In this document: positions 2,924 to 22,496 of the stretch, piece after piece
Layout: every line of letters starts with the position of its first letter
How positions within the stretch are numbered: position 1 is the first letter of the stretch
Assembly: GCA_031265345.1 (NCBI GenBank)
Contig: JAISCU010000418.1
Location: 1-22,509 of the forward strand
Length of the DNA stretch: 22,509 bases
Direction: 5' to 3'
Source of the DNA: Bifidobacteriaceae bacterium
GTDB taxonomy: Bacteria > Actinomycetota > Actinomycetes > Actinomycetales > WQXJ01
Notes under the pieces: generated by a model
Database searches by the model: none
Told to the model about the DNA's origin: nothing
What the model saw: only the letters and a program-made list of their open reading frames with translations
Translations under genes and position numbers: made by a program

Positions 2924-2945
2924 GAACCACTCTTCTCACGCGACT

Positions 2946-3970: not shown

Positions 3971-4800
3971 AGCGACGGCTTCGGATCGGCATGAGCGCCA
4001 GGGTGATCGGGTTGCTGGTGGTCTTGGGCTTGGCCGTGTTCCCTATCTACTGGATGTTGGTGACCGCGACAACGCCGAATTCTCGTCTCTTTAGCCCTCA
4101 GATCGCCATGTTCCCAGACGTGGGAGAGTTCTCGGTATTCGGCGACACGTTCGCGGACAAGGGAGTGATGCGTTGGCTGATGAATTCGGCGATCGTCGCG
4201 GTGGGGACCGCGATGCTCGCCCTGGTACTGGCGATTCCATTAGGTTACGCGCTGTCCCGATTCACCTTCGCTGGGAAATCGGCGACAAGTGTTGCGCTAC
4301 TGATGACGCAAATGCTGCCCGAGGCGCTGCTGGTCGTCCCTCTTTTCGGGATCTTCCGAGACATCAACCTCTTGGACAGCCGGGTCGGCCTGATGGTCGT
4401 CAATGCCGCGTTCGTTCTTCCGGTGGTGTGTCTACTGATCAAGAACGGCATCGACGGACTTCCACGCGAACTCGACGAGGCCGCAAGGGTCGATGGTTGC
4501 GGCCCGTGGCGCACGTTGGCCCGGATCCATCTTCCGCTGATCGCCCCGACGATCGCCGCTGCGGCGGTAATCGCTTTTTTTCACGGCTGGAACGAGTTCG
4601 TGTTCGCAGTTACCTTCATCTTCACGGACGACAAATTCCCCGCTTCGGTGGGGATCGCGAACTTCGTCGGCGAGCAGGCCACATCTGTGCATGCGATGAT
4701 GTCAGCCGCGTTGATGTACACGATTCCGGCGGTAGTGTTCTACCTGCTGGTTCAGCGCTACGTAGTGACCGGCATGACGGCCGGGAGCGTGAAAGGATAG
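3967..4800 (+). CDS. Sugar ABC transporter permease, MalG type
   Basis: A 277-residue partner permease. It has an N-terminal transmembrane segment (about 13-33, ending FPIYWMLVTAT, typical of MalG-like proteins), further hydrophobic segments, and the EAA loop ELDEAARVDGCGPWRTLARI at about 168-187 followed by HLPLIAP. It starts at GTG 3967, overlapping the preceding stop by 4 bp, with GAGGTG upstream. No ATP-binding subunit is encoded in the locus, so the pair probably uses a shared MsiK-like ATPase encoded elsewhere, as is known for many actinobacterial family-1 sugar importers. Confidence 0.93.
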   Translation: MKRRLRIGMSARVIGLLVVLGLAVFPIYWMLVTATTPNSRLFSPQIAMFPDVGEFSVFGDTFADKGVMRWLMNSAIVAVGTAMLALVLAIPLGYALSRFTFAGKSATSVALLMTQMLPEALLVVPLFGIFRDINLLDSRVGLMVVNAAFVLPVVCLLIKNGIDGLPRELDEAARVDGCGPWRTLARIHLPLIAPTIAAAAVIAFFHGWNEFVFAVTFIFTDDKFPASVGIANFVGEQATSVHAMMSAALMYTIPAVVFYLLVQRYVVTGMTAGSVKG

Positions 4801-4803
4801 CGA

Positions 4804-6000
4804 ATGCGCATAACGGACATTCGATTTGCGTTGTTGGGCGAGTCGCCTATAGTGCGGGTGATCAGCGATGAGGGTGTAGACGGATTCTCCCAGATGGAGC
4901 CGACCAAGGCGTTTCTGCGCGGGATCATGCCTGTCTACCGGGACCAGCTGATTGGCGCGGACCCGACGAACGTGGCGGGGTGCATACGCAAAGTGCGGCG
5001 TCTCGGCGGTTTCAAGCCATGGGGCGCGGTCGTCTCGGCGATTGAGATCGCTCTGTGGGACCTCGCTGGCAAGGCGGCGGGGCTGCCCGTTCACCAGTTA
5101 CTCGGGGGGCGCTTACGCGACCGTGTGAGGGTCTACGATGGCGGTCGCCGCTGGGTGACCGACGAAGACACTCCGGAGGCTTTTGCCAAATCGGTCAGGA
5201 TCATGGCCGAGGCCGAAGAGGGCTTCACGATCGTGAAGGAAACGGGAGGTTACCACGGGCCGCAAGCCCGCGACTTCGCGGCCAGAGGGCTCGCCGGTAA
5301 TCGTCCGCCTGGTCCGTGGTGGCCGGATCGTGGCCCGGTCGGCGAGCGAGCCATAGCCCACGTGGTGGACTGCGTAACGGCGATGAAGGAGGCGCTCGGC
5401 GACCGTGTCGCCTTGGCTTTGGACCTGGGCCCGGGTTGGATGCTGTCCGACGCGATCAGAGTTCTTAGGGCGCTGGAGCGATTCAATCTGCTCTGGGCTG
5501 AGGATCTCATCACCGGCGACTACGTGCCGTGGAACGATGTGGGGCAATATCGCGAGCTCACCACGTCGACGACGACGCCGGTGCACACGGGCGAGCAGAT
5601 CTACCTGCGCGACAATTTCGTCGAGTTGATCGAGCGCCAGGCCGTTCGCGTCATAGGCCCCGACCCGGCCGATGTCGGTGGACTGGCCGAATTGAAATGG
5701 ATCGCAGAATTTGCGGATCTCCACGGGATCATGGTGGCGCCTCATGGCTTCTGGAACGGGCTCCTGGGGCTTGCCGCGCACGTGCAACTCGCAGCGACGT
5801 TGCCGGACAACTTCATCGCTTTCGAGTATCCGGTGCCGTCCGAAGACTGGTGGTACGACCTTCTGGACGGATTGCCGAATCCCCTGGTCGTGGACGGTTT
5901 CATCCAGGTGTGGCAGGGACCGGGCCTTGGTGTGCGGATAGATCCAGAGGTGGCTGCTGTCCACTTGGCTCCTGGCGATGGTGGCTTCTTCGACCCGTGA
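4804..6000 (+). CDS. Enolase-superfamily (mandelate racemase-like) sugar-acid dehydratase
   Basis: A 398-residue protein of the mandelate racemase/muconate lactonizing group. It has an N-terminal capping domain with the typical SAIEIALWDLAGKAAGLPVHQLLGG, then a barrel. The metal ligands are recognisable as D207 (ALALDLGPG), E233 (LLWAEDL) and E264 (HTGEQ). A catalytic dyad is suggested by D290 (GPDPADVGGL) and H314 (VAPHGFW). At the end of the second barrel strand, where members usually show K-x-K, only one lysine (K145 in FTIVKETGG) is present. The context of KDG kinase and KDPG aldolase suggests it dehydrates an aldonate or hexarate to a 2-keto-3-deoxy acid. Its start lies 3 nt after the permease stop, with AAAGGAT upstream. 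Family is secure; substrate is unknown. Confidence 0.85.
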   Translation: MRITDIRFALLGESPIVRVISDEGVDGFSQMEPTKAFLRGIMPVYRDQLIGADPTNVAGCIRKVRRLGGFKPWGAVVSAIEIALWDLAGKAAGLPVHQLLGGRLRDRVRVYDGGRRWVTDEDTPEAFAKSVRIMAEAEEGFTIVKETGGYHGPQARDFAARGLAGNRPPGPWWPDRGPVGERAIAHVVDCVTAMKEALGDRVALALDLGPGWMLSDAIRVLRALERFNLLWAEDLITGDYVPWNDVGQYRELTTSTTTPVHTGEQIYLRDNFVELIERQAVRVIGPDPADVGGLAELKWIAEFADLHGIMVAPHGFWNGLLGLAAHVQLAATLPDNFIAFEYPVPSEDWWYDLLDGLPNPLVVDGFIQVWQGPGLGVRIDPEVAAVHLAPGDGGFFDP

Positions 6001-6047
6001 GCCTGCGGTGGCGAACCATGACCTGACTCCCATAGAAAGGAACCCAA

Positions 6048-7091
6048 ATGACCCAGACAGTCAAAGCCCTGGTCACGCGCGGCCCCGGCCAGTCATTCTG
6101 CCTTGAAGAAATAGAACGTCGCGATCCGAGGCCACATGACGTGGTGATCGCCGTTGAGTACTCAGGGATCTGTCATTCAGACATCCATACGGCCAGAGCT
6201 GAATGGGGAGAGACCATATTTCCGCTCGTACCTGGGCACGAAATCGCCGGGACGGTGGTGAGCGTTGGCGACGATGCCACCAAACACTCAGTTGGCGAGA
6301 AAGTGGGAGTAGGCTGTTTCGTCGATTCATGCCGCGAATGCTCGTTCTGCAAGGCTGGTCAAGAGCAGCATTGCGCGCGGGGCACAGTATTCACTTACAA
6401 TTCCCTTGGTTACGATGGCGAACCCACTCTCGGCGGATATTCCAAAGTGATAGTGGTCGACGAGGACTATGTGCTGAAATTGCCGGAGGGAATCGACCTT
6501 GCTCGTTCAGCACCCCTTCTCTGCGCCGGAATCACGCTCTACGCGCCACTCAAGGAATGGGGAGCCTGCCCCGGGACCAGAGTTGGGATCGTTGGAATGG
6601 GCGGTCTTGGTCACATGGGCGTCCAGATCGCCCGTGCGATGGGCGCTGATGTCACTGTACTCAGCCGGGGCCTGTCGAAGAAGGAAGACGGTCTCCGATT
6701 CGGTGCGGCCGATTATCGCGCCACCACTGACCCGCGCACATTTGAGGAACTCGCGGGGAGTTTCGACCTGCTGGTGTGTACGATCAGTGCGCAAGTGGAC
6801 GTGGACGCCCTCCTCGGACTTGTCAAGACAGGCGGGACGATGGTGTTTGTCGGGATGCCGCCTGGGAAGCAGGGTTTCAGTATCTCAGCTATGACCACAG
6901 GCAGGCGAAGAATGGCTGGATCTTTGATCGGAGGGATAGCCCTGACGCAAGAAATGCTCGATTTCTGCGCTGCCCACAAAGCGCTCCCGATGATCGAGGT
7001 GGTCAGTGCGGACCGTGTGGGTGAGACCTATGACAGAGTGGTGGCCGGCGACGTCCACTACCGGGCAGTGATCGATGTGGGGACGCTCTGA
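6048..7091 (+). CDS. Zinc-dependent alcohol dehydrogenase (YahK/CAD-like)
   Basis: A 347-residue medium-chain dehydrogenase. Catalytic-zinc ligands are visible as C42 (GICHSD), H64-E65 (GHE) and C159 (LLCAG). The structural zinc has C95, C98, C101 and C109 in the CRECSFCKAGQEQHC block. The Rossmann fold has GMGGLGHMGVQIA (about 183-195). Ser-Arg at 206-207 after the second strand (VLSRGLSKK) favours NADP(H). The nearest type is the cinnamyl-alcohol/aldehyde reductase group. In this operon it may interconvert an aldehyde and alcohol of a sugar-acid intermediate, which is inference. GAAAGGA precedes the ATG. Its 3' end overlaps the convergent iclR by 34 bp. Codon use is visibly less GC-biased than in gatCAB. 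Confidence 0.88.
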   Translation: MTQTVKALVTRGPGQSFCLEEIERRDPRPHDVVIAVEYSGICHSDIHTARAEWGETIFPLVPGHEIAGTVVSVGDDATKHSVGEKVGVGCFVDSCRECSFCKAGQEQHCARGTVFTYNSLGYDGEPTLGGYSKVIVVDEDYVLKLPEGIDLARSAPLLCAGITLYAPLKEWGACPGTRVGIVGMGGLGHMGVQIARAMGADVTVLSRGLSKKEDGLRFGAADYRATTDPRTFEELAGSFDLLVCTISAQVDVDALLGLVKTGGTMVFVGMPPGKQGFSISAMTTGRRRMAGSLIGGIALTQEMLDFCAAHKALPMIEVVSADRVGETYDRVVAGDVHYRAVIDVGTL

Positions 7092-7900
7092 CTATGGGGA
7101 GCGTGCGACAGGAGGCCGTCGACCTTGGTTGCCGCGTCGTTCAGCGCGGCAAGAACTGTGTTCATCCGATCAGGCGTGAGACGGACTTTGGGCACAGCGC
7201 AACTGATTGCGGTGAAGTCTGCTGTGTGCGCCCCGAGCGCGATGGCCATGCAACAGATGCCTTCGGTGTTCTCTTCATTGTCCACCGCGTAGCCCCGTTC
7301 GCGGGTCTTCGCGAGGTCCTCGATAAGCCGTTTCCGCGAAGTGATCGTACTCGGCGTGAGGGGCGCAAGCGCCTCGGGCAAGCGTGCCAGGACCTCGGCG
7401 TCGGACAGCCGCGCCAACTCTGCCTTACCGAGGGCGGTTGCGTGCGCCGGCAGCCGCCTCCCAACCGCGGAGTAGAGCCTGAGCGCGTGCCTCGACTCGC
7501 GCTTCGCGAGATAAACGATTTCGTCTCCGTCGAGACGGCCCAGGTGGATCGTCTCTCCCGTGACTTCGGCGGCCTTGTCGAGAGCAGCCTTGGACAGCGA
7601 CACGACGAGGTCGCGGTCGAGGAACGACATCGAGACCACGGCGCTCTTGAGGCCCAGGCCGAAACGGGTTCCGGACGAGTCGGTAGACAACCAGGACGCG
7701 TCTGCCATGGTGTGGATCAGGCCGTGAAGCGAACTTTTCGGGATACCGAGGACGCGCGACATCTGGGCGATGGACATCGGTTGGTCATTGGCGGACAGCA
7801 GTTCCAGGACTTGGAGGGTGCGCAGGCTGGACTTGACGCTGGATGCCGACGAACTGCCCGAGCCACGCTCTCCAGCATCTCGGAAATCGGCGATAGTCAA
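7058..7900 (-). CDS. IclR-family transcriptional regulator
   Basis: A 280-residue regulator with an N-terminal winged helix (about residues 22-85: SSLRTLQVLELLSANDQPMS, then SRVLGIPKSSLHGLIHTM). The C-terminal IclR effector domain carries GRRLPAHATALGKAELA and RERGYAVDNEENTEGICCMAI. IclR relatives commonly control uronate, KDG and aromatic catabolism and sense a pathway intermediate. The gene lies leftward inside the catabolic locus, divergent from eda, as expected for a local regulator. The only plausible start is TTG at 7900: the frame upstream has no ATG or GTG before a stop. Likely operators are upstream of this gene and at the transporter promoter. Confidence 0.93.
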   Translation of the reverse strand: MTIADFRDAGERGSGSSSASSVKSSLRTLQVLELLSANDQPMSIAQMSRVLGIPKSSLHGLIHTMADASWLSTDSSGTRFGLGLKSAVVSMSFLDRDLVVSLSKAALDKAAEVTGETIHLGRLDGDEIVYLAKRESRHALRLYSAVGRRLPAHATALGKAELARLSDAEVLARLPEALAPLTPSTITSRKRLIEDLAKTRERGYAVDNEENTEGICCMAIALGAHTADFTAISCAVPKVRLTPDRMNTVLAALNDAATKVDGLLSHAPHSQSVPTSITAR

Positions 7901-7938
7901 TCCAGCAACCCCATTAACGTTGGACGATACAAGTCAGT

Positions 7939-7965
7939 GTTCACAAACGTGAATGTGACTAGTCA
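7939..7965. promoter_or_regulatory. Putative IclR operator in the iclR-eda divergent region
   Basis: TTCAC (7940-7944) and GTGAA (7949-7953) form an inverted repeat around AAAC. On the minus strand the sequence reads CACGTTTGTGAAC (7939-7951), matching 11 of 13 bases of the box at the transporter promoter (1576-1588). An adjacent perfect 10-bp palindrome TGACTAGTCA covers 7956-7965. On the minus strand, TATCGT lies 18 bp from TTCACG and could be the iclR -10, which would place the box in the promoter spacer. Confidence 0.55.
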
Positions 7966-8139
7966 GCTTATCGCGCATCGCTCTCGCGGGTCCAGCCGAA
8001 CACCGATATGGGCTCCACGGTGCCAGGCAGAGTTCTTTCGCACGGTGGACTGGAGCAGCCTGACTGGCCTGCGCGGCGCGGCAGGCCGGCCTGTCCTTGG
8101 GCTAAGAATGACCTTCGCCGCAGGCAGGGAGACAGGACC

Positions 8140-8769
8140 ATGAGCGCGCAAGGATTCTGGGGCAGGCACCGCGTCATCCCTTTGGTCGTGATGGACAGGG
8201 CGGAAGACGCGACCCCCACAGCTGAGGCCTTGGCCGAAGGGGGACTGCCGATCATCGAAGTGGCGTACCGCACGCCGAAGGCACAAGCCGTGGTACGACG
8301 ACTTGCGCGAATGCCCGGCTTGGTGGTGGGAGCGGGCACAGTGGTGAACGAAGCACAGGCTGAGGGCGCGGTCGACGCTGGGGCCCAGTTCTTGGTGTCT
8401 CCTGGCTTCGCCGAGTGGATGCAGCGGGTGCCGGAGCGCCTGGGCGTTCCTCTGCTGCCTGGCGTCGCCACCCCGGGCGAGACCATGCGGGCGTATGATG
8501 CGGGCTTCGACACAATGAAGCTGTTCCCAGCTTCCGTGCTGGGCGGCGTTGACGCGGTCAGCGCGCTGGCATCCGCCTTCCCTGGAGCCCGATTCATACC
8601 CACGGGTGGTGTGACCGCCGCCAATGCGGTTGACTATCTCAACTTGCCCGAGGTAGCTGCCGTCGGCGGCTCGTGGATCGCCCCGAAACCCCTCATTTCG
8701 GCAGGCGACTTCGCGCAGATCACCCAATTGGCTCGCGAAGCGATCGAATTAAGCGAGGTCGGTCGATGA
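8140..8769 (+). CDS. eda: KDPG aldolase (2-dehydro-3-deoxy-phosphogluconate aldolase)
   Basis: A 209-residue class I aldolase that splits 2-keto-3-deoxy-6-phosphogluconate into pyruvate and glyceraldehyde-3-phosphate. Visible signatures are the catalytic glutamate E40 in LPIIEVAYRTP, GAGTV (65-69), the Schiff-base lysine K127 in TMKLFPAS, and the phosphate-binding PTGGVTAANAVDYL. The length matches Eda. The ATG at 8140 is preferred (AGGGAGACAGGA just upstream); an in-frame ATG at 8008 would add an unrelated basic segment. Its stop overlaps the kinase start (ATGA), and it heads the second, rightward half of the catabolic locus. Confidence 0.94.
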   Translation: MSAQGFWGRHRVIPLVVMDRAEDATPTAEALAEGGLPIIEVAYRTPKAQAVVRRLARMPGLVVGAGTVVNEAQAEGAVDAGAQFLVSPGFAEWMQRVPERLGVPLLPGVATPGETMRAYDAGFDTMKLFPASVLGGVDAVSALASAFPGARFIPTGGVTAANAVDYLNLPEVAAVGGSWIAPKPLISAGDFAQITQLAREAIELSEVGR

Positions 8770-9869
8770 CGGACGCCCCTGCGCCATCGATCAAGGCAGC
8801 GGCCCACTGTGGCTTGGATTTGGTCGCTCTGGGCGAAGTGATGCTTCGGCTGGATCCTGGGGCCACCAGAATTCGATCCGCAAGACGATTCGAAGTCTGG
8901 GAAGGGGGCGGCGAATACAACGTGGCACGCGCCCTGAGCCGCTGCTTCGGGCTACGAACGGGTGTAGTCACCGCGTTAGCCGATAACGAGATCGGCCAGC
9001 TGATCAAGGGCCTGATGCTGGCGGGAGGTGTCGACTTGTCCGCCGTCGTATGGGCGCGAGAAGCCCACGACGGTCGGGCGCTGCGCAACGGCCTGAACTT
9101 CACGGAACGTGGCTTCGGCGTCCGCGGAGCCCTCGGAGTGTCCGACCGGTCGGGCTCGGCAGCGGCCGCCATGACCGCGGCCGATGTGGACTGGGGCCGC
9201 CTGTTCGCCCTCCGCGGTGTGCGGTGGCTTCATACCGGCGGCATTTTTGCGGCGATATCGGAATCGGCGTCCGATGTCGTCCGTGCCGCGGTTGCGGCTG
9301 CGCACGAGACGGGGACAGTGGTCTCATACGATTTGAATTTCAGGCCCTCTCTGTGGCGGGACCAGGGCCGAGCGCTGGAAGTCAATTCCGCCCTCGTTGG
9401 CCAAGTCGATGTCCTGCTGGGCAACGAGGAAGACTTCACGGCCTGCCTGGGATTGGACGTTGCGGGCGTCCCGGACGATTTGAGCACGCTCAACCCAGCG
9501 GCGTACAGGCAGATGATCGAGTTGGCAGCCGACCGATACCCGAATCTCTCGTTGATCGCAACGACCCTGCGGTCGGTGAGGTCCGCGAGCCGAAATGATT
9601 GGGGGGCGGTGGCATGGAGTCGAGCGGAGGGGTTCGTCGAGGCTACATCCCGGCCGGATCTGGAGATCCTGGACCGCGTGGGTGGGGGAGACTCGTTTGC
9701 ATCGGGCCTAATCTATGGACTTATGGCGGGAATGCCCTTGCGTGAGGCCATCGAGGTCGGTGCTGCCCATGGCGCTCTAGCGATGACCACGCCGGGGGAT
9801 GCGTCAATGGCAGACAAAGAAGAGGTGCTTCGGTTGGCGGCGGGCGGCGGCGCTCGGGTCAGGCGATGA
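8766..9869 (+). CDS. kdgK: 2-keto-3-deoxygluconate kinase (PfkB family)
   Basis: A 367-residue ribokinase-family sugar kinase that would phosphorylate KDG to KDPG, the substrate of the aldolase encoded just upstream. It shows the N-terminal LVALGEVMLRLDPG, a sugar-binding WEGGGEYNVARALSR segment, VVSYDLNFRPSLW (a form frequent in KDG kinases), LLGNEEDF, and the PfkB signature VGGGDSFASGL with the catalytic base D309. It starts at ATG 8766, overlapping the eda stop by 4 bp. It is slightly longer than many KdgK proteins (about 310-350 residues), partly through the N-terminus. Specificity for KDG is inferred from the gene neighbours. Confidence 0.88.
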   Translation: MTDAPAPSIKAAAHCGLDLVALGEVMLRLDPGATRIRSARRFEVWEGGGEYNVARALSRCFGLRTGVVTALADNEIGQLIKGLMLAGGVDLSAVVWAREAHDGRALRNGLNFTERGFGVRGALGVSDRSGSAAAAMTAADVDWGRLFALRGVRWLHTGGIFAAISESASDVVRAAVAAAHETGTVVSYDLNFRPSLWRDQGRALEVNSALVGQVDVLLGNEEDFTACLGLDVAGVPDDLSTLNPAAYRQMIELAADRYPNLSLIATTLRSVRSASRNDWGAVAWSRAEGFVEATSRPDLEILDRVGGGDSFASGLIYGLMAGMPLREAIEVGAAHGALAMTTPGDASMADKEEVLRLAAGGGARVRR

Positions 9870-9915
9870 GCGGTGCCAGACTGGCCTTCGCGGCCTGCAG
9901 GAGGGGAACGGCAAG

Positions 9916-10986
9916 ATGAGAGTTGGACTGGGGATCCCGGGGCCATGGACTAATCGTGAGACTCTCCGATTCGCCCGGCAGATCGGTGCCACGGAAATGG
10001 TGGCGCACTTCGCGTCTGATCGTGGCGCGCAGGTCGCCTCGCACGGATTCTCCGGCGTCGAGCACTCCCGCGAGGGGGATCCGCGCTTCTCCTACAAGCA
10101 TTTCATGGGAGTCAAAGCCCTTGCGGCTGGAGAAGGGCTCGATCTCGTCGCCGTCGAGAACTTCACCGGTGCTGACTGGTCTGACGTGCTCTTGGACGGA
10201 CCTGACCGCGACCGGCAAGTGGATCGACTGCGGCGGATCGTCCGTGACATGGGACGGGCCGGCATCGAGATGCTTGGGTACAACTTCTCGCTTGCGGGTG
10301 TATGGGGACGAGAGTTGCGTCCGGAGGCCCGTGGTAGGGCGATGACCGCCGTCTTCGACCGGCCCGATGAATCGCCGATCCCTCGAGGCATGGTCTGGAA
10401 CCAGGTCGTCGACCGAGCCCTGTACGAGCGATCTACGCCAGATGGTGCAATTGACGCGGTCACTCAGGATCAACTCTGGAACCGCTTGGGCCGGTTCCTC
10501 GACGATTTGTTGCCAGTCGCGGAAGAAGCCGGCGTGGTCATGGCGCTGCACCCCGATGACCCGCCGACTGCGACGCTGAGAGGCACGCCGCGTCTGGTCT
10601 ACCGAGCGGAACTCTACGATCGCGTGCTGGCAGCCAGCCCGATTGCGAACAATGCCCTTGAATTCTGCGTAGGCTCCCTGGCGGAAATGCCTGACCAGGA
10701 TATCTACAGCGTCGTGGCGCACTTCGCCGCCACGGGGCGGATCGCGTATGTCCATCTGCGCAACGTGTCGGGCCGGGTGCCGACATACAGAGAGACCTTT
10801 GTCGATGACGGCGACGTCGACTTGCAGCGCGTTCTGAGGATCCTTGCGGATTCGGGTTTCCAGGGTGTGGTGGTGCCCGACCATGCTCCGTACCCGACGT
10901 GCGAGGCGCCCTGGCATGCCGGCATGGCCTATGCGGTGGGATGGATCAGAGCATCGCTTCGGGCGATCGGGGAACTGGAGGATTGA
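9916..10986 (+). CDS. uxuA: D-mannonate dehydratase
   Basis: A 356-residue UxuA-type TIM-barrel enzyme that dehydrates D-mannonate to KDG, the last step of the glucuronate branch before KdgK. Diagnostic stretches are HPDDPP (212-217) followed by LRGTPRLVY, LEFCVGS (249-255), AYVHLRNV (277-284) with a metal-binding His, and VVVPDHAPYP near the C-terminus. The start at ATG 9916 has AGGAGGGG upstream; the gap after kdgK is 46 bp. Its presence implies that mannonate, usually derived from fructuronate, is an intermediate of the pathway. Confidence 0.93.
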   Translation: MRVGLGIPGPWTNRETLRFARQIGATEMVAHFASDRGAQVASHGFSGVEHSREGDPRFSYKHFMGVKALAAGEGLDLVAVENFTGADWSDVLLDGPDRDRQVDRLRRIVRDMGRAGIEMLGYNFSLAGVWGRELRPEARGRAMTAVFDRPDESPIPRGMVWNQVVDRALYERSTPDGAIDAVTQDQLWNRLGRFLDDLLPVAEEAGVVMALHPDDPPTATLRGTPRLVYRAELYDRVLAASPIANNALEFCVGSLAEMPDQDIYSVVAHFAATGRIAYVHLRNVSGRVPTYRETFVDDGDVDLQRVLRILADSGFQGVVVPDHAPYPTCEAPWHAGMAYAVGWIRASLRAIGELED

Positions 10987-11143
10987 ACCGCGCCTGGTGT
11001 CGCATCGCGAAAAGCGGAGCAGAATCGCGTGTCTTCGCGTGCTGCCAGGGCAGACGTGATCGTAGAGAAGAGATCATGCATGAGTCCACGATGTCGGGAT
11101 GGCCCTGCGGCGGGTCGCCTGCAAACCATGAAAGGTGTCGGAA

Positions 11144-11908
11144 ATGAACCAGTCTCCCTTCTCCCTGGAGGGCAAAACAGCGCTCGTGACGGGAGGAAAT
11201 CGCGGGCTGGGCGAGGCGGAGGCGATCGGCCTGGCTCGCGCCGGTGCCAAGGTTGCCATAGCGGGGCGCGATGCGACCGTGACGGCAGCTACTGTTGAGC
11301 GGGCGGCGGCAGATGGTACGGCGCTCATTCCGATCCGGGCCGACCTGACTGTCAGGTCGCAGATCGAGGCGATGATCGCAGAGGCCGCAGACCGTCTGGG
11401 CGGCATCGACGTGCTTGTCAACAACGCGGGAGTGTGTTATCAGCGGCCGTCGTTCGAGGTTCCGGACGCGGAGTGGGACGATGTGCTAGCCGTCAATCTG
11501 ACAGCGGTATTCCGCACCTGCGTCGAGGCGGCGCGCCTGATGGCAGCCACCGGAGGCGGGGCAATCGTCAACATCGGCTCGATGTCCGGCATGATTGTCA
11601 ACCGACCGCAGTGGCAGCCGGCCTACAACGCTTCGAAGGCGGCGGTCCATCACTTGACTCGGTCGCTGGCGGTGGAATGGGCGCCGCACGGAATAAGGGT
11701 GAATGCAGTGGCTCCGGGATATGCGCGGACCGACATGACACCGATCAACCGGCCCGAGTTCAAGCAGCGCTGGGTCGATGACGTGCCGATGCGCCGTCCG
11801 GCCGAACCCGCAGAGATTGCCCCGGCAGTGGTCTTCTTGGCGTCGGAAGCGGCCTCGTTCGTGACGGGCTCAGTGCTCCTGATAGACGGCGGCTACACCG
11901 CAGTGTGA
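11144..11908 (+). CDS. Short-chain dehydrogenase/reductase
   Basis: A 254-residue classical SDR. It has the cofactor motif TGGNRGLG (16-23), NNAG (93-96), a catalytic Ser in NIGSMSG and Y161-x-x-x-K165 (YNASK), then VAPGYARTDM and a C-terminal FVTGSVLLIDGGYTAV. R42 after the second strand suggests NADP(H). Coming directly after uxuA, it is a candidate fructuronate reductase or gluconate/keto-acid reductase supplying mannonate; that is inference. The ATG at 11144 is preferred because AAAGG lies 8 nt upstream; GTG 11135 would be too close to that site. A 157-bp gap separates it from uxuA, so it may have some independent expression. Confidence 0.88.
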   Translation: MNQSPFSLEGKTALVTGGNRGLGEAEAIGLARAGAKVAIAGRDATVTAATVERAAADGTALIPIRADLTVRSQIEAMIAEAADRLGGIDVLVNNAGVCYQRPSFEVPDAEWDDVLAVNLTAVFRTCVEAARLMAATGGGAIVNIGSMSGMIVNRPQWQPAYNASKAAVHHLTRSLAVEWAPHGIRVNAVAPGYARTDMTPINRPEFKQRWVDDVPMRRPAEPAEIAPAVVFLASEAASFVTGSVLLIDGGYTAV

Positions 11909-15482: not shown

Positions 15483-15526
15483 GGGGACAGGAGCGGCCCG
15501 CGCGGTGTCCCCAAAACGAGTTTTGG
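15483..15526. terminator. Two adjacent hairpins after gatB (possible terminator)
   Basis: GGGGACA (15483-15489) pairs with TGTCCCC (15506-15512) across 16 nt. The last CC then starts a second perfect palindrome, CCAAAACGAGTTTTGG (15511-15526), able to form a 6-bp stem with a CGAG loop. No T-run follows. The two stems share two bases, so they may be alternatives. They sit between gatB and vapB and could end gatCAB transcription, or be a diverged repeat element like the ones near 22160 and 22314. Confidence 0.4.
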
Positions 15527-15602
15527 TCCCACTTCGGTTGGACGGACTCCCGCGTCGGGGCGATCGAGGGGCATCCCACCGGCTTGTCATAATCAATTCA
15601 GG

Positions 15603-15608
15603 TACAAT
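15603..15608 (+). promoter_or_regulatory. -10 box of a probably leaderless vapB mRNA
   Basis: TACAAT lies exactly 7 nt before the vapB ATG, the same arrangement as at gatC, and no Shine-Dalgarno sequence is present. A TTGTCA further upstream (from about 15584) is too close to be a standard -35. Confidence 0.55.
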
Positions 15609-15615
15609 TGCCCGC

Positions 15616-15876
15616 ATGGGTAGGAGAACCTCGACGGCGACTATTACCGTGTCAATGCCTAACGACGTGCTCGACTCGATGCGGGAGGTGGCCGGTCCCC
15701 GCGGGGTCTCGGCATTCGTCACCGAGTCGGTTCAGGATCGCTTGCGCAGGCAAAGGCTGGCGGAGATCGGCGCCGAGGTCGAAGCCGCCAGTGGCCCGTT
15801 CACCGCGGAAGAGCGCGAATGGGCCAGCCGCGTCTTGCGTGGTGAGGATTTGACTGAACCAGTCCTAAAACCGTGA
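15616..15876 (+). CDS. vapB: VapB-like antitoxin
   Basis: An 86-residue small protein with an N-terminal ribbon-helix-helix-like segment (TSTATITVSMPNDVLDSMRE, then GVSAFVTESVQDRL) and an acidic C-terminal half (AEEREWASRVLRGEDLTEP) suited to binding and neutralising the toxin encoded next. Such antitoxins dimerise, bind their own promoter and are degraded under stress. The ATG at 15616 is preferred to the longer frame from 15505, which reads through the hairpin region. The stop overlaps the toxin's start by 4 bp (GTGA). Confidence 0.82.
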   Translation: MGRRTSTATITVSMPNDVLDSMREVAGPRGVSAFVTESVQDRLRRQRLAEIGAEVEAASGPFTAEEREWASRVLRGEDLTEPVLKP

Positions 15877-16274
15877 GCGCGCCCGCCGCCACAATCCTGC
15901 TGGACTCGCAAGGCCTGGCGCTCGCCTTGCAGGGCGACCGAAGGATAGCGGTGCTGTTGAAGCAGGCCGACCTGGACGGAGCAACCGTCCATGTGTCCGC
16001 TCTGACGATTGCGGAGGCGGCCCACGGCCGCACTGACCTGAGGCGTCTCGACTGGATACTGTCCGGCTTTCTGGTCGAAGGAGTGCGTCCGACAGATGGC
16101 AAAGAGGCCGTCCGACTTATGCGTGAGCGCGGCGGTCTGGCGGGCCATTCCCACGCGATTGATGCCCTCGTGGCCGTTTTGGCGTCGCGGCTTCCGCTCC
16201 CCGTCCTGGTCGTGACCTCCGACCCCGAGGACTGGCGTCGTCTGGCGCCGCAAGTCAGAATCATCAAAGTGTGA
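15873..16274 (+). CDS. vapC: PIN-domain toxin, VapC-like ribonuclease
   Basis: A 133-residue PIN-domain protein. The four acidic residues of the Mg-dependent RNase site are in place: D11 (ILLDSQGL), E48 (TIAEAAHG), D97 (HAIDALVA) and D117 (VVTSDPEDW). The length is typical of VapC, so it appears intact. It starts at GTG 15873 overlapping vapB, so the two are translationally coupled. VapC toxins cleave tRNA or rRNA; the target here cannot be told. The first repeated lipoprotein leader begins 16 bp after the stop. Confidence 0.87.
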   Translation: MSAPAATILLDSQGLALALQGDRRIAVLLKQADLDGATVHVSALTIAEAAHGRTDLRRLDWILSGFLVEGVRPTDGKEAVRLMRERGGLAGHSHAIDALVAVLASRLPLPVLVVTSDPEDWRRLAPQVRIIKV

Positions 16275-16290
16275 TCTCGGAGCGGCCCTT

Positions 16291-16422
16291 CGCCCATATT
16301 GTCTGCTCCGAGCAGACCGCGACGGTCGTCTTCAGGATCACGCTGACCCGTGAGAGAGATCGCGGTCGGGCCGCGATCAGGCGAAGGGTCCGCAGCAGGC
16401 ACCCCAAAGAAAGGATCGCGAG
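16291..16422 (+). promoter_or_regulatory. Repeated lipoprotein leader, copy A
   Basis: This 132-bp region before the first lipoprotein gene is a paralogue of 17426-17560. Box 1 (16291-16317) is CGCCCATATT followed by the palindrome GTCTGCTC-C-GAGCAGAC (16301-16317). TATTGT within it resembles a -10 box. Box 2 (16373-16419) begins GCGATC and ends GATCGC, which can pair; it holds GGTCCGCA, AGGCACCCC and the ribosome-binding site AAAGAAAGG. Between the boxes are 55 diverged bases. The paired ends of box 2 would enclose the ribosome-binding site next to the ATG at 16423, so translational control is possible. It matches no riboswitch family that I recognise. Confidence 0.6.
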
Positions 16423-16788
16423 ATGAAGACTCTCAGACGAATGACTGTCACAGTCGCAGTGACGGCGGCGGCCTTGACGGCGACGCTGGTTGGCTGCTCG
16501 GAGGCTGGTGGCGACGCTGGCGCAACTGCGGCGTATGCCTTCAACAACGACTTCGAGCCGGGTTACAAGGCTTTCCGTTACCGGCAAGTGCTGATTGAGA
16601 TCGACCCCGAACTGACAATGTATGCATATCAGAACGACAGGTGGAACCTACTCAGGACGCAAGAAGACCTTGATGCCCGCCAAGGCTACCTTGGTGACGA
16701 TTCCAGTGCGCTACTCATGCTGGTTGAGGACGCGGACGCTCCTCTGTTGTCTCTTGAAGTGTCCGGATCGCCGAGAGGTGTCGCTTAG
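16423..16788 (+). CDS. Small secreted lipoprotein, unknown function (A)
   Basis: A 121-residue lipoprotein. It has a basic start (MKTLRRM), a hydrophobic stretch and a clear lipobox LVGC with Cys25, followed by a Gly/Ala linker. The mature part (about residues 34-121) is rich in Tyr, Asp and Leu (FEPGYKAFRYRQVLIEIDPE) with no recognised domain. AAAGAAAGG lies about 8 nt before the ATG and belongs to the leader shared with the other lipoprotein gene at 17561. The two proteins share the MKxLxRM start but no obvious similarity after the signal. The 3' end faces yoeB, 25 bp away. Confidence 0.8.
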   Translation: MKTLRRMTVTVAVTAAALTATLVGCSEAGGDAGATAAYAFNNDFEPGYKAFRYRQVLIEIDPELTMYAYQNDRWNLLRTQEDLDARQGYLGDDSSALLMLVEDADAPLLSLEVSGSPRGVA

Positions 16789-16813
16789 GGCGCGGGGCCC
16801 GAGGCGCTCACGC

Positions 16814-17086
16814 TCAAGGGCGTTCGTAATGTGTCCAAGCGGAGTAGATCGTGACGATTCGCGCTTCCGTGTCCACCCGGTACACCACCCGGTGCTGATG
16901 GTTCAACCGGCGCGAGTAGAAGCCCTGCGAATGCGGCCGCAGCTTCTCGAATTTGTCGGTCGGGCGGAAAGGGTCCGCCTTGAGCGTGTCCACGATCGCC
17001 AGGAATCGTGCTTGGAGGCGTGAAGCCTTGAGTCTCCGCAGATCACCCTTGGCGCTGTTCTTGATTTGGACGCGCCAAAGACTCAC
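16814..17086 (-). CDS. yoeB: YoeB-type mRNA interferase toxin
   Basis: A 90-residue RelE/YoeB-superfamily toxin, a ribosome-dependent mRNA endonuclease. The C-terminal catalytic region is characteristic: FYSRRLNHQHRVVYRVD followed by IVTIYSAWTHYERP. The basic and His residues and the terminal His-Tyr correspond to the YoeB active site. The N-terminal WRVQIKNSAKGDLRRLKAS is also typical. It starts at GTG 17086, overlapping the yefM stop by 4 bp (GTGA). Its length and motifs suggest an intact toxin. Confidence 0.9.
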   Translation of the reverse strand: MSLWRVQIKNSAKGDLRRLKASRLQARFLAIVDTLKADPFRPTDKFEKLRPHSQGFYSRRLNHQHRVVYRVDTEARIVTIYSAWTHYERP

Positions 17087-17343
17087 AGTGAATCCCAGTC
17101 GATGTCGTCGATGTCAGTGACGCCGCTGGAGTCGGCGGCGCGTTCGCGCACCCGCTCCAGGGTGCCGGTGGTCTCGAGGTAGAGGGTCTCTTGAATGGAG
17201 GCCCAGTCCTCGGCGGCGATCACCACGGCGCCAGGGGCACCGCTGGCTGGTCTTATCTCCACCGGTTGACGCTGTTCGTTGACTTGGCGAAGAATCTCGA
17301 ACCAATGGGAGCGCGCGGCCGATGGCGTGTATACGACTGTCAT
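17083..17343 (-). CDS. yefM: YefM-type antitoxin
   Basis: An 86-residue Phd/YefM antitoxin. The N-terminal DNA-binding half reads VVYTPSAARSHWFEILRQVN, followed by QPVEIRPASGAPGAVVIAAE and WASIQETLYL. The acidic C-terminus (SSGVTDIDDIDWDSL) would wrap the toxin. The ATG at 17343 is preferred, with TAAGG 6 nt upstream; a longer frame to 17382 would start inside the operator. It precedes yoeB with 4-bp overlap. Autoregulation is supported by the TGTACA operator just upstream. Confidence 0.9.
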   Translation of the reverse strand: MTVVYTPSAARSHWFEILRQVNEQRQPVEIRPASGAPGAVVIAAEDWASIQETLYLETTGTLERVRERAADSSGVTDIDDIDWDSL

Positions 17344-17369
17344 GATGAGCCTTAGCTGCTCGTGGGATA

Positions 17370-17388
17370 TGTACAGCACCACTGTACA
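17370..17388 (-). promoter_or_regulatory. YefM operator with paired TGTACA cores
   Basis: TGTACAG (17370-17376) and CTGTACA (17382-17388) form a perfect inverted repeat with 5-bp spacer; each contains the palindromic hexamer TGTACA, with centres 13 bp apart. The operator of the E. coli yefM-yoeB system also uses two TGTACA-core palindromes at close spacing. The site lies 27 bp upstream of the yefM ATG and overlaps a possible -10 (TACATA on the minus strand). Confidence 0.8.
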
Positions 17389-17425
17389 GGGAAGGCGCGG
17401 GCTCCGCGCTTCCAGTTTGGGTCGG

Positions 17426-17560
17426 CGCCCATATTGTCTGCTCCCAGCAGACCCAGGCGACCGTGGCCCAGAGTAACGTGCGGACTGAGAATTGGGACCG
17501 CGTTCCCTGGGCGATCAGGCGAACGGTCCGCAATAGGCACCCCAAAGAAAGGATCGCACG
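17426..17560 (+). promoter_or_regulatory. Repeated lipoprotein leader, copy B
   Basis: Paralogue of the leader at 16291-16422. CGCCCATATT is identical; the palindrome is GTCTGCT-CCC-AGCAGAC (17436-17452). Box 2 (17511-17557) differs from copy A at only 3 of 47 positions and keeps the GCGATC/GATCGC pairing ends and the AAAGAAAGG ribosome-binding site. The segment between boxes is 58 bp, 3 longer than in copy A, and largely diverged. It leads directly to the GTG at 17561. Confidence 0.6.
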
Positions 17561-18019
17561 GTGAAGGCATTAGGCAGAATGGGAATTCTGGGCGCCGCGC
17601 TGGCATTGGCGTTGACATTGGCCAGTTGCTCAGGTGGAGACTCGAGCGCCGGGATTGGCCGGGGCATGGAGACGGATAACCCCAGCGACGTGTTGAGCGA
17701 AGTCATCGATCGCTATACAGCTGGCGACGACTACATGTCCCTCTTCGGCAGCGATGTCGATGAATCAGCCACGAAGGTCGCGGTGGCGCAGTGGCAGGAG
17801 GACGGCGGGCGCATTTTCGCGGTGATCCAGAGCGGCGCGGAGGTGTTCGAGACGTTGACGGGCGACAAGCCCAAAGTCGGCAAAGGCGAGACTCTGCTCG
17901 GGTTCTACGTGGGCACGGAACAAGGATTCGAGGAGATCAAGGGCCACGGTTACGCGCTCGTGTCGGAAGGCGACCCCGGCAAGTACTACGTCGCTGAGTT
18001 TGGCTACGGGACTCTGTAG
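17561..18019 (+). CDS. Small secreted lipoprotein, unknown function (B)
   Basis: A 152-residue lipoprotein starting at GTG 17561, with MKALGRM, a hydrophobic stretch and lipobox LASC (Cys23), then a Ser/Gly/Asp linker. The mature domain (about 40-152) begins DVLSEVIDRYTAGDDYMSLF and contains AVAQWQEDGGRIFAVIQSG and GETLLGFYVGTEQGFEEIKG. It looks like a compact alpha/beta fold, but no family is recognised. AAAGAAAGG in the shared leader is the ribosome-binding site. It is divergent from yefM-yoeB, whose operator lies 170 bp upstream. Confidence 0.8.
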   Translation: MKALGRMGILGAALALALTLASCSGGDSSAGIGRGMETDNPSDVLSEVIDRYTAGDDYMSLFGSDVDESATKVAVAQWQEDGGRIFAVIQSGAEVFETLTGDKPKVGKGETLLGFYVGTEQGFEEIKGHGYALVSEGDPGKYYVAEFGYGTL

Positions 18020-18088
18020 CGCCGACCGCGCGCCGCAACATCGTCTTCGTGGCCTTGGCTCCAACGACGAATTCCCGGGACGCGACCA

Positions 18089-18094
18089 TAGAAT
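18089..18094 (+). promoter_or_regulatory. -10 box of a probably leaderless DUF3039 mRNA
   Basis: TAGAAT (TANNNT) lies 6 nt before the GTG at 18101 and there is no Shine-Dalgarno sequence, as at gatC and vapB. Confidence 0.45.
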
Positions 18095-18100
18095 GGGTTG

Positions 18101-18451
18101 GTGACTCGAAGCCTGAACGAACCATACAGCGCGCCGCAAACCCCAGGGGCGCCTGCCGCACCAAATGGACCCGCAGGCCCGTCAGCTGGCACCGAACTGC
18201 TGGAGCGCGAGGAGACGCGCCTCGATCCGGGCGACCACGAGCGCTTCGCCCACTACGTCCGCAAGGACAAGATCGCCGCTTCGGCGGTCAGCGGCAAACC
18301 GGTGGTAGCCCTTTGCGGCAAGGTCTGGGTGCCGGGACGCGACCCGTCGAAGTACCCGATCTGCCCCGCCTGCAAAGCGATCTACGAATCGCTGATGGGC
18401 GGCGGTCCCGCAGGCGGACCGGTTGGTCCCGGCACGCCAGGGTCGGACTGA
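18101..18451 (+). CDS. DUF3039-family protein
   Basis: A 116-residue protein of a conserved actinobacterial family of unknown function. After a Pro/Ala-rich start (residues 10-30) comes the conserved core TELLEREETRLDPGDHERFAHYV, then KPVVALCGKVWVPGRDPSKY and PICPACKAIYESL. C72, C88, C91 and H51 could bind a metal. The C-terminus is a Gly/Pro tail. GTG 18101 is chosen over TTG 18098 because it sits at leaderless spacing from TAGAAT. Its last 70 bp overlap the 3' end of the convergent DUF4430 gene. Confidence 0.88.
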   Translation: MTRSLNEPYSAPQTPGAPAAPNGPAGPSAGTELLEREETRLDPGDHERFAHYVRKDKIAASAVSGKPVVALCGKVWVPGRDPSKYPICPACKAIYESLMGGGPAGGPVGPGTPGSD

Positions 18452-19458
18452 GCCAGGCGGCGCGAGCGTCGGTGCACCAGCCCAAGCGCGGCCATGATGG
18501 CCACACTCCCACCGACGATGCCGCCCAACGCGACCGCCTGCGGACGCCCGGTTCGCTCGCCCAGGGCCCCAGGCCGCCGTCGATCATGGCCGACTAAGCC
18601 GGTAGCCCCAGGTGACCCAGGCCCGGCCGCTTCGCCGGTCGCGGCACCGCCAGTCTCATCGTCTGTCCCGTCGGGTCCGGTCGGATCGGCGGCCTGGTCC
18701 AACAGGCCAGCTTCCGTGTCGCCATCCAGGCCGCCGATGCCGCCGCCCGAGTCGGCGCCGCCGTCAGCCCCGCTTTGGTCCGGCTCTGCGCCCGATCCGC
18801 TCGAACCGCCTGCGCCGCCGGAGCCGTCACGGCCCCCGCCTGCATCGCCGCCCTGTCCGCTGCCGGCCGCACCGCCACCGTCAGCCCCCGCAGCGGCATT
18901 GCCATTGCGCCCATCGCTGCCTGCGCCTGAGCCGTTGCCGCCAGCAGGTGGCACAGGAGCGGGCGCGGCGACCTTGGCCGGGGCGAAGCGGGGCGCGGGA
19001 GCGTTGGCGCCGCCCAGGTTGAACGACCAACCCTCGAAGCCACCGGCCTTGACGCGATGCTGGCCGGCGCCTGAAGTCGAATAGGTCCAACTGCCGCCAT
19101 TGTCGGCGTACCAATACGACCAGTACGCGTTCGACGGCGGGGTGTTCTCGCAGGTCTCCTGGTAATCGCCGGACGGCAGGGACAGGACCTCCGACGCGCT
19201 CGGTCGCCCGTTCAAGCGGCAGACGAAGGCGTCGCCATCGTGCGCCGTGCCCTGGGTGGAGGCCCCGATCGCGCTGAGGGCCGAGCGCCCATTCGCGCCG
19301 CTGCCCAGGCCGAGCGCGCAAGTCGCCTGCGTGCCGCCGCCGAGCCCCTGGTAGTCGATCACCACCGTGACGCCATCGGGCTCGGCGGTGGTGCAGGCAC
19401 CGGAGTGGTTCTCGCTCGGCGCCAGCACCACCAGGGCGGCGGCCAGTAGGCCGATCAC
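18382..19458 (-). CDS. Membrane-anchored DUF4430 surface protein
   Basis: A 358-residue exported protein. From GTG 19458 it has a hydrophobic signal segment (VIGLLAAALVVLAP), then a DUF4430-like domain (about 29-155: GVTVVIDYQGLGGGTQATC, then SNAYWSYWYADNGGSWTYST and EGWSFNLGG). A very long Gly/Ala/Asp/Ser-rich linker (about 165-295) leads to a C-terminal transmembrane segment (VALGGIVGGSVAIMAALGLV) and a basic tail (HRRSRR). There is no LPxTG motif, so anchoring would be by the membrane helix. The start lies 2 nt after the stop of the upstream sortase-anchored gene, so both share the riboswitch-controlled message. DUF4430 resembles the C-terminal domain of transcobalamin, so corrinoid binding is plausible; not proven. 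The start is uncertain. Confidence 0.75.
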   Translation of the reverse strand: MIGLLAAALVVLAPSENHSGACTTAEPDGVTVVIDYQGLGGGTQATCALGLGSGANGRSALSAIGASTQGTAHDGDAFVCRLNGRPSASEVLSLPSGDYQETCENTPPSNAYWSYWYADNGGSWTYSTSGAGQHRVKAGGFEGWSFNLGGANAPAPRFAPAKVAAPAPVPPAGGNGSGAGSDGRNGNAAAGADGGGAAGSGQGGDAGGGRDGSGGAGGSSGSGAEPDQSGADGGADSGGGIGGLDGDTEAGLLDQAADPTGPDGTDDETGGAATGEAAGPGSPGATGLVGHDRRRPGALGERTGRPQAVALGGIVGGSVAIMAALGLVHRRSRRLAQSDPGVPGPTGPPAGPPPISDS

Positions 19459-19460
19459 CG

Positions 19461-21278
19461 TCAGGAGGCCGAACCGCTCACGCGGACAATGGCGCGCCGC
19501 CGGTGGGCCACCAGGATCGCGCCAACCGCCACCGCGAGGACCGCCATCGCGGACAGCCCAATCGAGACAGCGGTGCCCGTGATCGGCAGCGCAGCGGACG
19601 TGGGGGAGCCGCTGCCAGTGGGCGTGATCGCAGACGATCCGCTCGAACCGCTGGTCGGTTGGGCGCAAGTGACCGAGGGCAACGCGGCGGCGGCACCGTC
19701 GAAGGTCAAAGCGGCTAGTCCGGGCGCACCCAGGGCGAAGACCGCCTGGGCGGTGGCGCGCCGGAACTGGTCGGTGTTGACCTCGTCCAGACCTAGTTCC
19801 ACCGCCTCGTCGAGTCCGGTCTGGTCGAAGGCGATGGCCCCGACAGCTGGCTCGGTCAGCACGGAGCCGGGAACGGTCAGCGTGGCACAGGTGATCTGCA
19901 AGCCGCCGACGTAGCCAGCGGCCGCGGATTCGACCGTGTCATAGCCTCCGACCAGCGCCAACGTGCCAGCAGCCAGTCCGGTGGTGTTGGCGTTGGCGCC
20001 GCCGAAGCTGGACGGGAAGCCGCCGTCGGCCTCTTGTTTGGCCGCCAACCATCCGGCAGCGCTGGACACCGACTGATCCGAGGCCGCCAAGCCACCGGCG
20101 ACCAGACCTTGGATCGCCAGCGCGGTCGCGTCCGGATCGGGCGAGCCACAGCCGGGCGACCAGCCGAACGAGCCGAAGGCCGGGTCGGTCTGGTCGGCGC
20201 ACTGCTGAGACCGCAGCCAAGACAACGCGGCGGGCGGCACTCCGCCGTCCGTCCGCGACAGCGCGATCAGCGCGATGGCGTGGCTGAAGGCGGTGTCGCC
20301 GCTGCCGAAGGACCCGTCCGCGCCGAGCACGCCGCGCAGGTCGGCCACCAGGTTCCGGGCCCCGCCGCCCACGCCGCCCGAGGGCAAGGCCGCCGGGTCC
20401 AGCCCCGCCACTTGCAACGCCAGAGTCAATTTGGCCACAGCGGGCCACTTGCTGGCGATATCCCCGGGCGCGCCGACATAGGCCTCGCCGGAGGCGTACA
20501 GCTTGGCGGCCGTCGCCGCGCCTTGATCGGCCCCGACTCCGGTGGCGGCCAGCGCGAACAGCGCGTCGATGGTCAAACCCCAATCGGTCGAGCCGTTCAG
20601 CGCCAGCACGCCGCCAGAGGCGGCCAATTGACCGCCGATCCAGGCCGCGGCCTGCGTCGCGGAGCCCACACCGGGCGTGGTGCGGGCCGGGGGAGCGACC
20701 GAGCCGGTGCCTTGGCGGGCCAGCACGTCGGCCAGCGGCAACTGTGGTCCGCACGCCACCGGATCGGTGCAGGACCACGAGTCGAACAGGCGGAAGAAGT
20801 AGGCCTCGTCCGTCTCCACCGGACCGCCGTCGCCGCCCACCATGGCCATCTGCCAATCGGTCGCGGCGGGTCCTCCGGGATAACCGTCGGCGGTGGATGT
20901 GAACAACCCCCACCAGCCCTGGTCCCCAAGCGTGGAGGCGTCCACGCCGTCGATCTCGGTGATGAACGCCCCGGAGGCGCCGAAGCCGAAACCGGCGGCC
21001 TCGTAGGCGTCGCGAACCGATCCGGCGGCATCGGGCGCGCAACGCATGTCCACCTGCTCGCGGACGGGCGCGAAGTCGACCACGACGGTCACCCCCTGTC
21101 CGGGAAGGCACGCGGCGCCCGTGACTGCGGCACCACCAACGGCGGCGCTGTCGGCGGGAACTGTGCGCGCGGCATCGGCGGTGATGGGCGCGGCGGCGGC
21201 GGGCACTGCCCACACGCCCGACGCGGCCACGATTAACCCGGCGGCCACAGCCGCTGCGGGACGAGCGATTGCACTCAA
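19461..21278 (-). CDS. Sortase-anchored transcobalamin-like surface protein
   Basis: A 605-residue cell-wall protein. It has a signal peptide (about 1-31), then a DUF4430-like domain (about 58-170: GVTVVVDFAPVREQVDMRC, GSVRDAYEAAGFGFG, WWGLFTSTADG, TDEAYFFRLFDSW). Next come alpha-helical repeats of the terpene-cyclase/prenyltransferase type (about 200-490; for example AAAWIGGQLAASGGVLA, SHAIALIALSRTDGG, ATALAIQGLVAGGLA, SSAAGWLAAKQEADGGFPSS). The end is LPITG (564-568), a hydrophobic helix and HRRR, a sortase signal. A DUF4430 domain with an alpha/alpha barrel is the architecture of vertebrate transcobalamin and intrinsic factor in reversed order. The cobalamin riboswitch just upstream strongly supports a corrinoid-capture role. 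The start TTG 21278 is chosen because GAGG lies 6 nt upstream and a good signal peptide follows. Confidence 0.85.
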   Translation of the reverse strand: MSAIARPAAAVAAGLIVAASGVWAVPAAAAPITADAARTVPADSAAVGGAAVTGAACLPGQGVTVVVDFAPVREQVDMRCAPDAAGSVRDAYEAAGFGFGASGAFITEIDGVDASTLGDQGWWGLFTSTADGYPGGPAATDWQMAMVGGDGGPVETDEAYFFRLFDSWSCTDPVACGPQLPLADVLARQGTGSVAPPARTTPGVGSATQAAAWIGGQLAASGGVLALNGSTDWGLTIDALFALAATGVGADQGAATAAKLYASGEAYVGAPGDIASKWPAVAKLTLALQVAGLDPAALPSGGVGGGARNLVADLRGVLGADGSFGSGDTAFSHAIALIALSRTDGGVPPAALSWLRSQQCADQTDPAFGSFGWSPGCGSPDPDATALAIQGLVAGGLAASDQSVSSAAGWLAAKQEADGGFPSSFGGANANTTGLAAGTLALVGGYDTVESAAAGYVGGLQITCATLTVPGSVLTEPAVGAIAFDQTGLDEAVELGLDEVNTDQFRRATAQAVFALGAPGLAALTFDGAAAALPSVTCAQPTSGSSGSSAITPTGSGSPTSAALPITGTAVSIGLSAMAVLAVAVGAILVAHRRRAIVRVSGSAS

Positions 21279-21380
21279 GATGAGCCTCGATTCGGCTAAG
21301 CGATCCGGAAAGGAACGCCGCGCGGGCCGGGCCCGGAACTCCGGCGCTCCTCCGCAGACCTCGGCGGATGGAAACGCTGC

Positions 21381-21470
21381 GGCTCCGTGGCAGTGTTCGG
21401 GCTCATCGCGTTCGCGATCCACCGTTGCGGGTCAGCGCCGGGTTTCGACCGGCTTCCCTGCCTCGGAGCC
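21381..21470 (-). ncRNA. Cobalamin riboswitch (compact form)
   Basis: On the minus strand, closing stem GGCTCCG (21464-21470) pairs with CGGAGCC (21381-21387). Inside are the conserved blocks of the B12 aptamer: GGGAAGCCGG (21449-21458), a GCCGG/CCGGC hairpin, GCTGACCCGCAACGGT (21421-21436) and GAGCCCGAACACTGCC (21389-21404, equivalent to the AAGCCCGAAGACCTGCC box of btuB). The usual large variable arm is replaced by a short hairpin, ATCGCG-AA-CGCGAT (21405-21418). A ~100-nt GC-rich expression platform follows (21279-21380) before the TTG start of the surface-protein gene. Expected action is repression when cobalamin is abundant. Confidence 0.88.
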
Positions 21471-22381: not shown

Positions 22382-22414
22382 ACTGGGTGGCGCCGCCATG
22401 CCAAGTCTCACTAA

Positions 22415-22496
22415 CTTGTGGGCGGTTGTGTCTCGGAAACTCGGAGACGGTTGTGTCTCAGATCTTGTGGACGGTTGTGTCTCAACACTCGTGGAC
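22415..22496. repeat. Tandem 24-25-bp repeats at right edge
   Basis: The element CGGTTGTGTCTC recurs at 22423, 22448 and 22472 (periods 25 and 24), with surrounding CTTGTGG(G/A)C partly conserved. A truncated fourth unit starts CTCGTGGAC at about 22488. On the minus strand the unit reads TGAGACACAACCGTCCACAAG. It could be the end of an insertion sequence or a repeated protein-binding site continuing outside the window; no transposase is visible here. Confidence 0.75.

Follow-up and report, generated by a model that had tools for sequence, protein, structure and literature searches.

The window analysed here, a stretch of 22,509 nucleotides from a contig assigned to a Bifidobacteriaceae bacterium, contains two small lipoprotein genes that are each preceded by a copy of the same leader (Table 1). 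Both leaders share one architecture, in which a first conserved box (box 1) is followed by a diverged middle, a second conserved box (box 2), three bases and the start codon, ATG at 16423 in the first unit and GTG at 17561 in the second. The two copies (16291-16422 and 17426-17560) lie in tandem, in the same orientation and 1,135 nt apart, and alignment confirmed the positions that a preliminary description of this DNA had given for them.

Table 1. Features of the two units and of the genes between them
Feature	Position	Strand	Description
Box 1, copy 1	16291..16318	+	CGCCCA; -10-like TATTGT (16297-16302); palindrome GTCTGCTC-C-GAGCAGAC (16301-16317); 27/28 identical to copy 2
Diverged middle, copy 1	16319..16372	+	54 nt; 28/54 identical to copy 2
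Box 2, copy 1	16373..16419	+	ends GCGATC/GATCGC; SD-like AGAAAGGA at 16408-16415; 44/47 identical to copy 2
Lipoprotein 1	16423..16788	+	121 aa from ATG behind SD; lipobox LVGC, by eye; orphan
yoeB-like toxin	16814-17086	-	between the units; TIGR02116, E 7.5e-23; Pfam
yefM/phd-like antitoxin	17083-17343 (or from GTG 17382)	-	between the units; TIGR01552, E 5.1e-7; Pfam
Box 1, copy 2	17426..17453	+	palindrome GTCTGCT-CCC-AGCAGAC (17436-17452)
Diverged middle, copy 2	17454..17510	+	57 nt
Box 2, copy 2	17511..17557	+	SD-like AGAAAGGA at 17546-17553
Lipoprotein 2	17561..18019	+	152 aa from GTG behind SD; lipobox LASC, by eye; orphan

The near-identity of box 1, palindrome included, was borne out by the alignment (27/28), as was that of a 47-nt box with only three differences (44/47). 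The stretch between the boxes is indeed diverged (28/54, with one 3-nt gap), although it measures 54 and 57 nt and not the 55 and 58 bp given earlier. Box 2 stops 3 nt short of the start codon, at an equal distance in both copies. Searched with three mismatches allowed, the window contains a 22-nt segment of box 2 twice and a 23-nt box 1 pattern also twice, against none in 100 shuffles. A profile made from the two copies recovers, as it must, both sites (E 3.7e-44 and 4.6e-42); it detected no third copy in the window, the next match having an E-value of 0.79. The DNA 5' of box 1 is unrelated between the copies (P 0.87 over 100 nt).

A yoeB-yefM module occupies the space between the units, on the opposite strand. 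Two TGTACA cores upstream of yefM (17370-17388) are operator-like; their spacing is 13 bp centre to centre, compared with the 12 bp reported for yefM-yoeB and axe-txe. The first unit is preceded by a PIN-domain (VapC-like) gene (E 3e-4, slightly below the Pfam cut-off), which together with the small gene upstream of it, for which no Pfam family match was obtained, is perhaps a second toxin-antitoxin pair (15616-16274). A DUF3039 gene lies 3' of the second unit.

Conservation of the two boxes

The boxes are identical at 71/75 positions, compared with 28/54 in the middle (Fisher P 1.6e-8). If the middle is taken as a measure of neutral divergence, the probability of the observed identity is 5.5e-10 for box 2 and 2.8e-7 for box 1. 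All these values are too small, as the borders of the boxes were drawn from the same alignment that was tested, but the contrast is large despite such after-the-fact borders, and it lends support to the earlier proposal that the boxes are constrained parts of one cis-regulatory unit. The middle itself could be aligned better than shuffled sequences (P 0.007) with its single gap, as expected from an old duplication. Its homology is likely but uncertain, since 35 of 3,093 other positions in the window match it as well as copy 2 does. From the divergence of the middle relative to the boxes it appears that the duplication is probably old, and that the boxes have been either constrained or homogenised piecemeal. 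The preliminary description had also considered a simple recent tandem duplication; this does not agree with the divergence of the middle, the signal peptides and the mature proteins, and the duplication is probably not recent.

Piecemeal homogenisation would imply gene conversion between the copies. Their tandem arrangement, 1,135 nt apart, would favour such an exchange, but conversion must then have hit two short tracts (28 and 47 nt) and yet have spared the 54 nt between them. We consider this highly improbable, with the proviso that two sequences and no orthologue do not separate selection from partial gene conversion with certainty.

None of the six reading frames accounts for the conservation (P at least 0.14). 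A short peptide encoded by the conserved stretch might be suspected from the fact that both copies can be read through in sense frame +1 and in antisense frames 0 and 2, and that the sole gap measures 3 nt. For copy 1, the peptide of frame +1 (from GTG 16271) moreover has a weak Pfam match to Adcy_cons_dom (E 0.018, below the cut-off), and in both copies frame +1 terminates in a TGA that overlaps the start codon. However, the substitutions favour none of these frames (P 0.46 for +1, 0.14 and 0.86 for the antisense frames), a common start codon is absent from frame +1 by inspection, and the TGA overlap arises from any ATG or GTG before AAG. A coding role for the conserved stretch therefore seems hardly credible.

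The lipoproteins and their signal peptides

A search of 5.8 billion protein sequences, which depends on shared 5-residue words, returned a single match for lipoprotein 1, the window's own entry. For lipoprotein 2 it returned the window's own entry (146 aa) and a 117-aa entry, 100% identical, on a contig of 6,157 bases. Neither protein matched a Pfam family, and NCBIfam matches to OppC and beta-lactamase, far under the cut-offs, were not considered credible. Structure predictions from the single sequences reached mean pLDDT values of 49.9 and 40.8, a low confidence that leaves the models too poor to compare. The database entries of both lipoproteins begin six codons downstream of the starts in Table 1, at an ATG 25 nt from the SD. 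We prefer the earlier starts because these lie 7 nt behind an SD-like sequence. In copy 2 a TAG in the lipoprotein frame (frame 0) lies inside box 2, so that the start of lipoprotein 2 cannot be 5' of this TAG.

The two lipoproteins had been described as otherwise dissimilar. This holds for their mature parts, which do not outscore shuffled sequences (P 0.65), but not for the first ~60 nt of the coding sequence, and the full-length proteins do outscore shuffles (P 0.0025). Over these 60 nt of signal-peptide DNA 32 positions are identical. Four lipoprotein-like starts of the window were compared, and the five other pairs that they form agree at 16-25 positions; with 75 nt taken instead, the contrast narrows to 34 versus at most 32. 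One unit of control region and signal peptide thus precedes two mature proteins without remaining likeness, if any ever existed.

Such a pattern could also result from the capture of a secretion cassette, whereby promoter, 5'UTR and signal peptide recombined onto an unrelated coding sequence, the two proteins then not being drifting paralogues. The similarity ends near the lipobox, the mature parts are without any, both proteins are orphans, and one account describes the evolution of the Borrelia erp genes in these terms (PMC10016077). No sharp junction can be drawn here, however, because the signal-peptide DNA is itself far less conserved than the boxes, and fast drift of paralogues would look alike. 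We regard cassette capture as unlikely.

The closest parallel in arrangement is that of the erp (ospE/ospF/elp) genes of Borrelia. According to two papers, these share an "upstream homology box", a conserved promoter/operator and leader in front of lipoproteins with differing exposed parts, and they occur in many copies, on cp32 prophage plasmids and with conserved leader polypeptides (PMC10016077, PMC7002432). The likeness to the present locus, the same leader ahead of lipoproteins with different mature parts, is one of arrangement and not of kinship, and it presupposes a promoter role for box 1, which we infer. A relation in sequence is not expected, and unlike the erp genes the present units form two tandem copies in an actinobacterial contig, with a signal peptide less conserved than the boxes. 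In the vlp families of Mycoplasma, too, a conserved 5' region is found before variable lipoproteins, with phase-variable promoter tracts and conserved signal peptides, neither of which was seen here. An inverted repeat (16306-16334 versus 16475-16503, 72% complementary) connects the palindrome region with the signal-peptide DNA of the first unit.

Candidate control elements in the leaders

The hexamer TATTGT of box 1 is invariant between the copies and would fit a -10 element. The palindrome starts in its last two bases and would then cover the start site of transcription; its single change between the copies adjoins the centre and keeps the 7-3-7 symmetry. Repressors often bind over the end of a promoter or the start site, and the position of the palindrome over the putative -10 end and the presumed start site suggests that a repressor-type protein probably controls both genes jointly. 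The window has five perfect 7-3-7 palindromes, the two box 1 copies included; the symmetry alone is only mildly unusual. A conserved -35-like hexamer is absent upstream of box 1 when the two copies are compared, and a consensus promoter scan reported nothing at box 1. A weak terminator-like site (17418-17431) overlaps box 1 of copy 2 only (2 sites in the region versus 1.7 expected).

Box 2 includes, 7 nt from the start codon, the SD-like AGAAAGGA, which we take to pair with the actinobacterial 16S 3' end. The ends of the box, GCGATC and GATCGC, pair over 6 bp and coincide exactly with the borders of the conserved run; such ends were found in 18 of the 22,463 47-mers of the window. The preliminary description had these ends enclosing the ribosome-binding site. 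They do pair and the SD does lie inside box 2, but the closing stem takes only the last two bases of the SD, one further base being engaged in a lone predicted pair.

This geometry raises the question whether box 2 is a small undescribed riboswitch-like cis-regulatory RNA, with a 6-bp closing stem, an internal loop (AGGCGAA / CCAAAGAAAG), an inner hairpin and the SD built in, in which a bound small molecule or protein would stabilise the closing stem and lower the translation of both lipoproteins. The coincidence of the conserved run with the arms of a perfect inverted repeat agrees with such a function, as do the fold of box 2 alone (z -2.74 in copy 1 and -1.40 in copy 2) and the position of two of its three changes in the predicted apical loop. 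The third change, on the other hand, disrupts the outer base pair of the inner hairpin, and none of the three, in this comparison of two sequences, is compensatory. The fold of the whole leaders, from palindrome centre to start codon, is unremarkable (z -1.26 and -0.56), and the reverse strand of box 2 gives nearly equal energies (z -2.05 and -0.59).

The closing stem was predicted at a probability of 0.94-1.00 in copy 1 for transcripts that begin at the palindrome centre (12 models per copy), but at just 0.00-0.39 in copy 2 for the same starts. Over 28 models per copy the values spanned 0.00-1.00 (copy 1) and 0.00-0.99 (copy 2), and the probability of this stem thus depends on the transcript ends chosen. 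The SD was unpaired at 0.62 or more in 56/56 transcript models (37 C), and at 0.66-0.77 for starts at the palindrome centre. A cmscan of the whole window against the 4,227 families of Rfam 15 gave no match at gathering score; seven permissive matches, far under the gathering scores, were discarded. Riboswitches and thermometers of Rfam 15 are the kind to which a structured leader with the SD inside it would belong; the present leader differs from them in its lack of a gathering-score match and in an SD without anti-SD pairing.

In RNA thermometers of the ROSE and fourU types the SD is paired to an anti-SD strand at low temperature. The mostly unpaired SD argues against a thermometer that masks it, and the suggestion that the leader might be one, made from the sequence at first sight, finds no support in the models at 37 C. 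The evidence for an RNA switch is thin, and we see a riboswitch-like box 2 as a possibility of rather low probability. A still bolder proposal would make box 2 a new compact class of regulatory RNA, 47 nt long and with the SD inside its closing structure, that controls small lipoproteins of uncultured bacteria related to Bifidobacteriaceae. Box 1 would then act separately, as an operator at the level of transcription, and both genes would be under two layers of control. This is more doubtful again, but if true it would matter more than a unit of co-regulation. The left arm of box 2 in copy 1 is also contested by an alternative hairpin, GATCGCGG/CCGCGATC (16358-16378), to which one model gives a probability of 0.04; by eye this hairpin is not retained in copy 2.

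Origin of the arrangement and the rest of the window

The leader had further been proposed to spread as a mobile cassette, i.e. as an element that inserts ahead of genes. The presence of two copies, with toxin-antitoxin genes close by, might be read in this way. However, both copies are adjacent, in the same orientation and at an equal distance from the start codon, the window holds no third one, and in the repeat list for 15500-18800 no inverted repeat of at least 12 nt joins the two ends of a unit. The exact 18-mer GGCACCCCAAAGAAAGGA of box 2 had three matches in 84,980 species genomes (Rhizobacter, Thiodiazotropha and Flavobacteriales records), and in viral contigs neither of two patterns from box 2 nor one of box 1 that includes the palindrome had a match; both searches used exact patterns and are blind to diverged copies in relatives. 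The three genomic matches lie inside long ORFs (513 or 656, 295 and 798 aa), with no other leader sequence in the surrounding 251-401 bases, and were rejected as leader copies. The bare palindrome was found in 13 stretches of viral contigs, which we take to be chance matches. With both leaders as query, nine plasmid records were retrieved in which the matches cover at most 5% of the query; with the leader of copy 1, two records of one phage were retrieved (14% covered, E 0.2). A narrow search of the literature on shared leaders and RNA motifs found no account of the present leader. The idea of a mobile leader is not supported by these data and appears highly improbable.

The explanation that we favour, at a probability of roughly 0.6, starts from an old tandem duplication in which promoter/operator, 5'UTR and signal peptide were copied as one unit. 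Both genes would since have remained under shared control, exerted through an operator box and an initiation box. An ancestral unit of this composition would have been duplicated in tandem in an actinobacterium, whereupon the downstream parts either diverged beyond recognition or were replaced. The yoeB-yefM module would have come to sit between the units; its location between the two copies makes an insertion after the duplication probable. Purifying selection would meanwhile have retained the two control boxes. Box 1 would correspond to the -10 element (TATTGT), with its end and the presumed start site under the 7-3-7 palindrome, and box 2 to the translation initiation region, composed of the strong SD and the ~35 nt upstream of it, which probably form a small stem-loop that sets the efficiency of translation or the stability of the mRNA. 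It speaks against this duplication and common control that box 2 exceeds the length needed for an SD.

If the leader is a real unit of co-regulation, two orphan lipoproteins in an uncultured actinobacterium would be linked to a common signal. The leader would in addition serve as a natural comparison, where the functional parts of a promoter and of a 5'UTR stand out by what selection has preserved.

With respect to the organism, the best match of the GatB encoded in the window is an entry labelled Bifidobacteriaceae bacterium (87% identity, among the best 120 of 7,999); the closest MAGs of the Bifidobacteriaceae label share 82-87% identity with this GatB. The region 1685-11908 has the appearance of a sugar-acid catabolic cluster, with genes for a solute-binding protein, an enolase-superfamily enzyme, a zinc alcohol dehydrogenase, an IclR regulator, a KDPG aldolase, a PfkB kinase, a UxuA-like dehydratase and a short-chain dehydrogenase. 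Two proteins encoded at 3032-4800 resemble ABC permeases by eye. On the reverse strand, at 18385-21422, two long ORFs were found that look secreted by eye and have no Pfam match at E 0.001; we presume that they may resemble DUF4430 proteins. Finally, imperfect tandem repeats of ~24 bp that contain GGTTGTGTCTC are located at 22405-22493.
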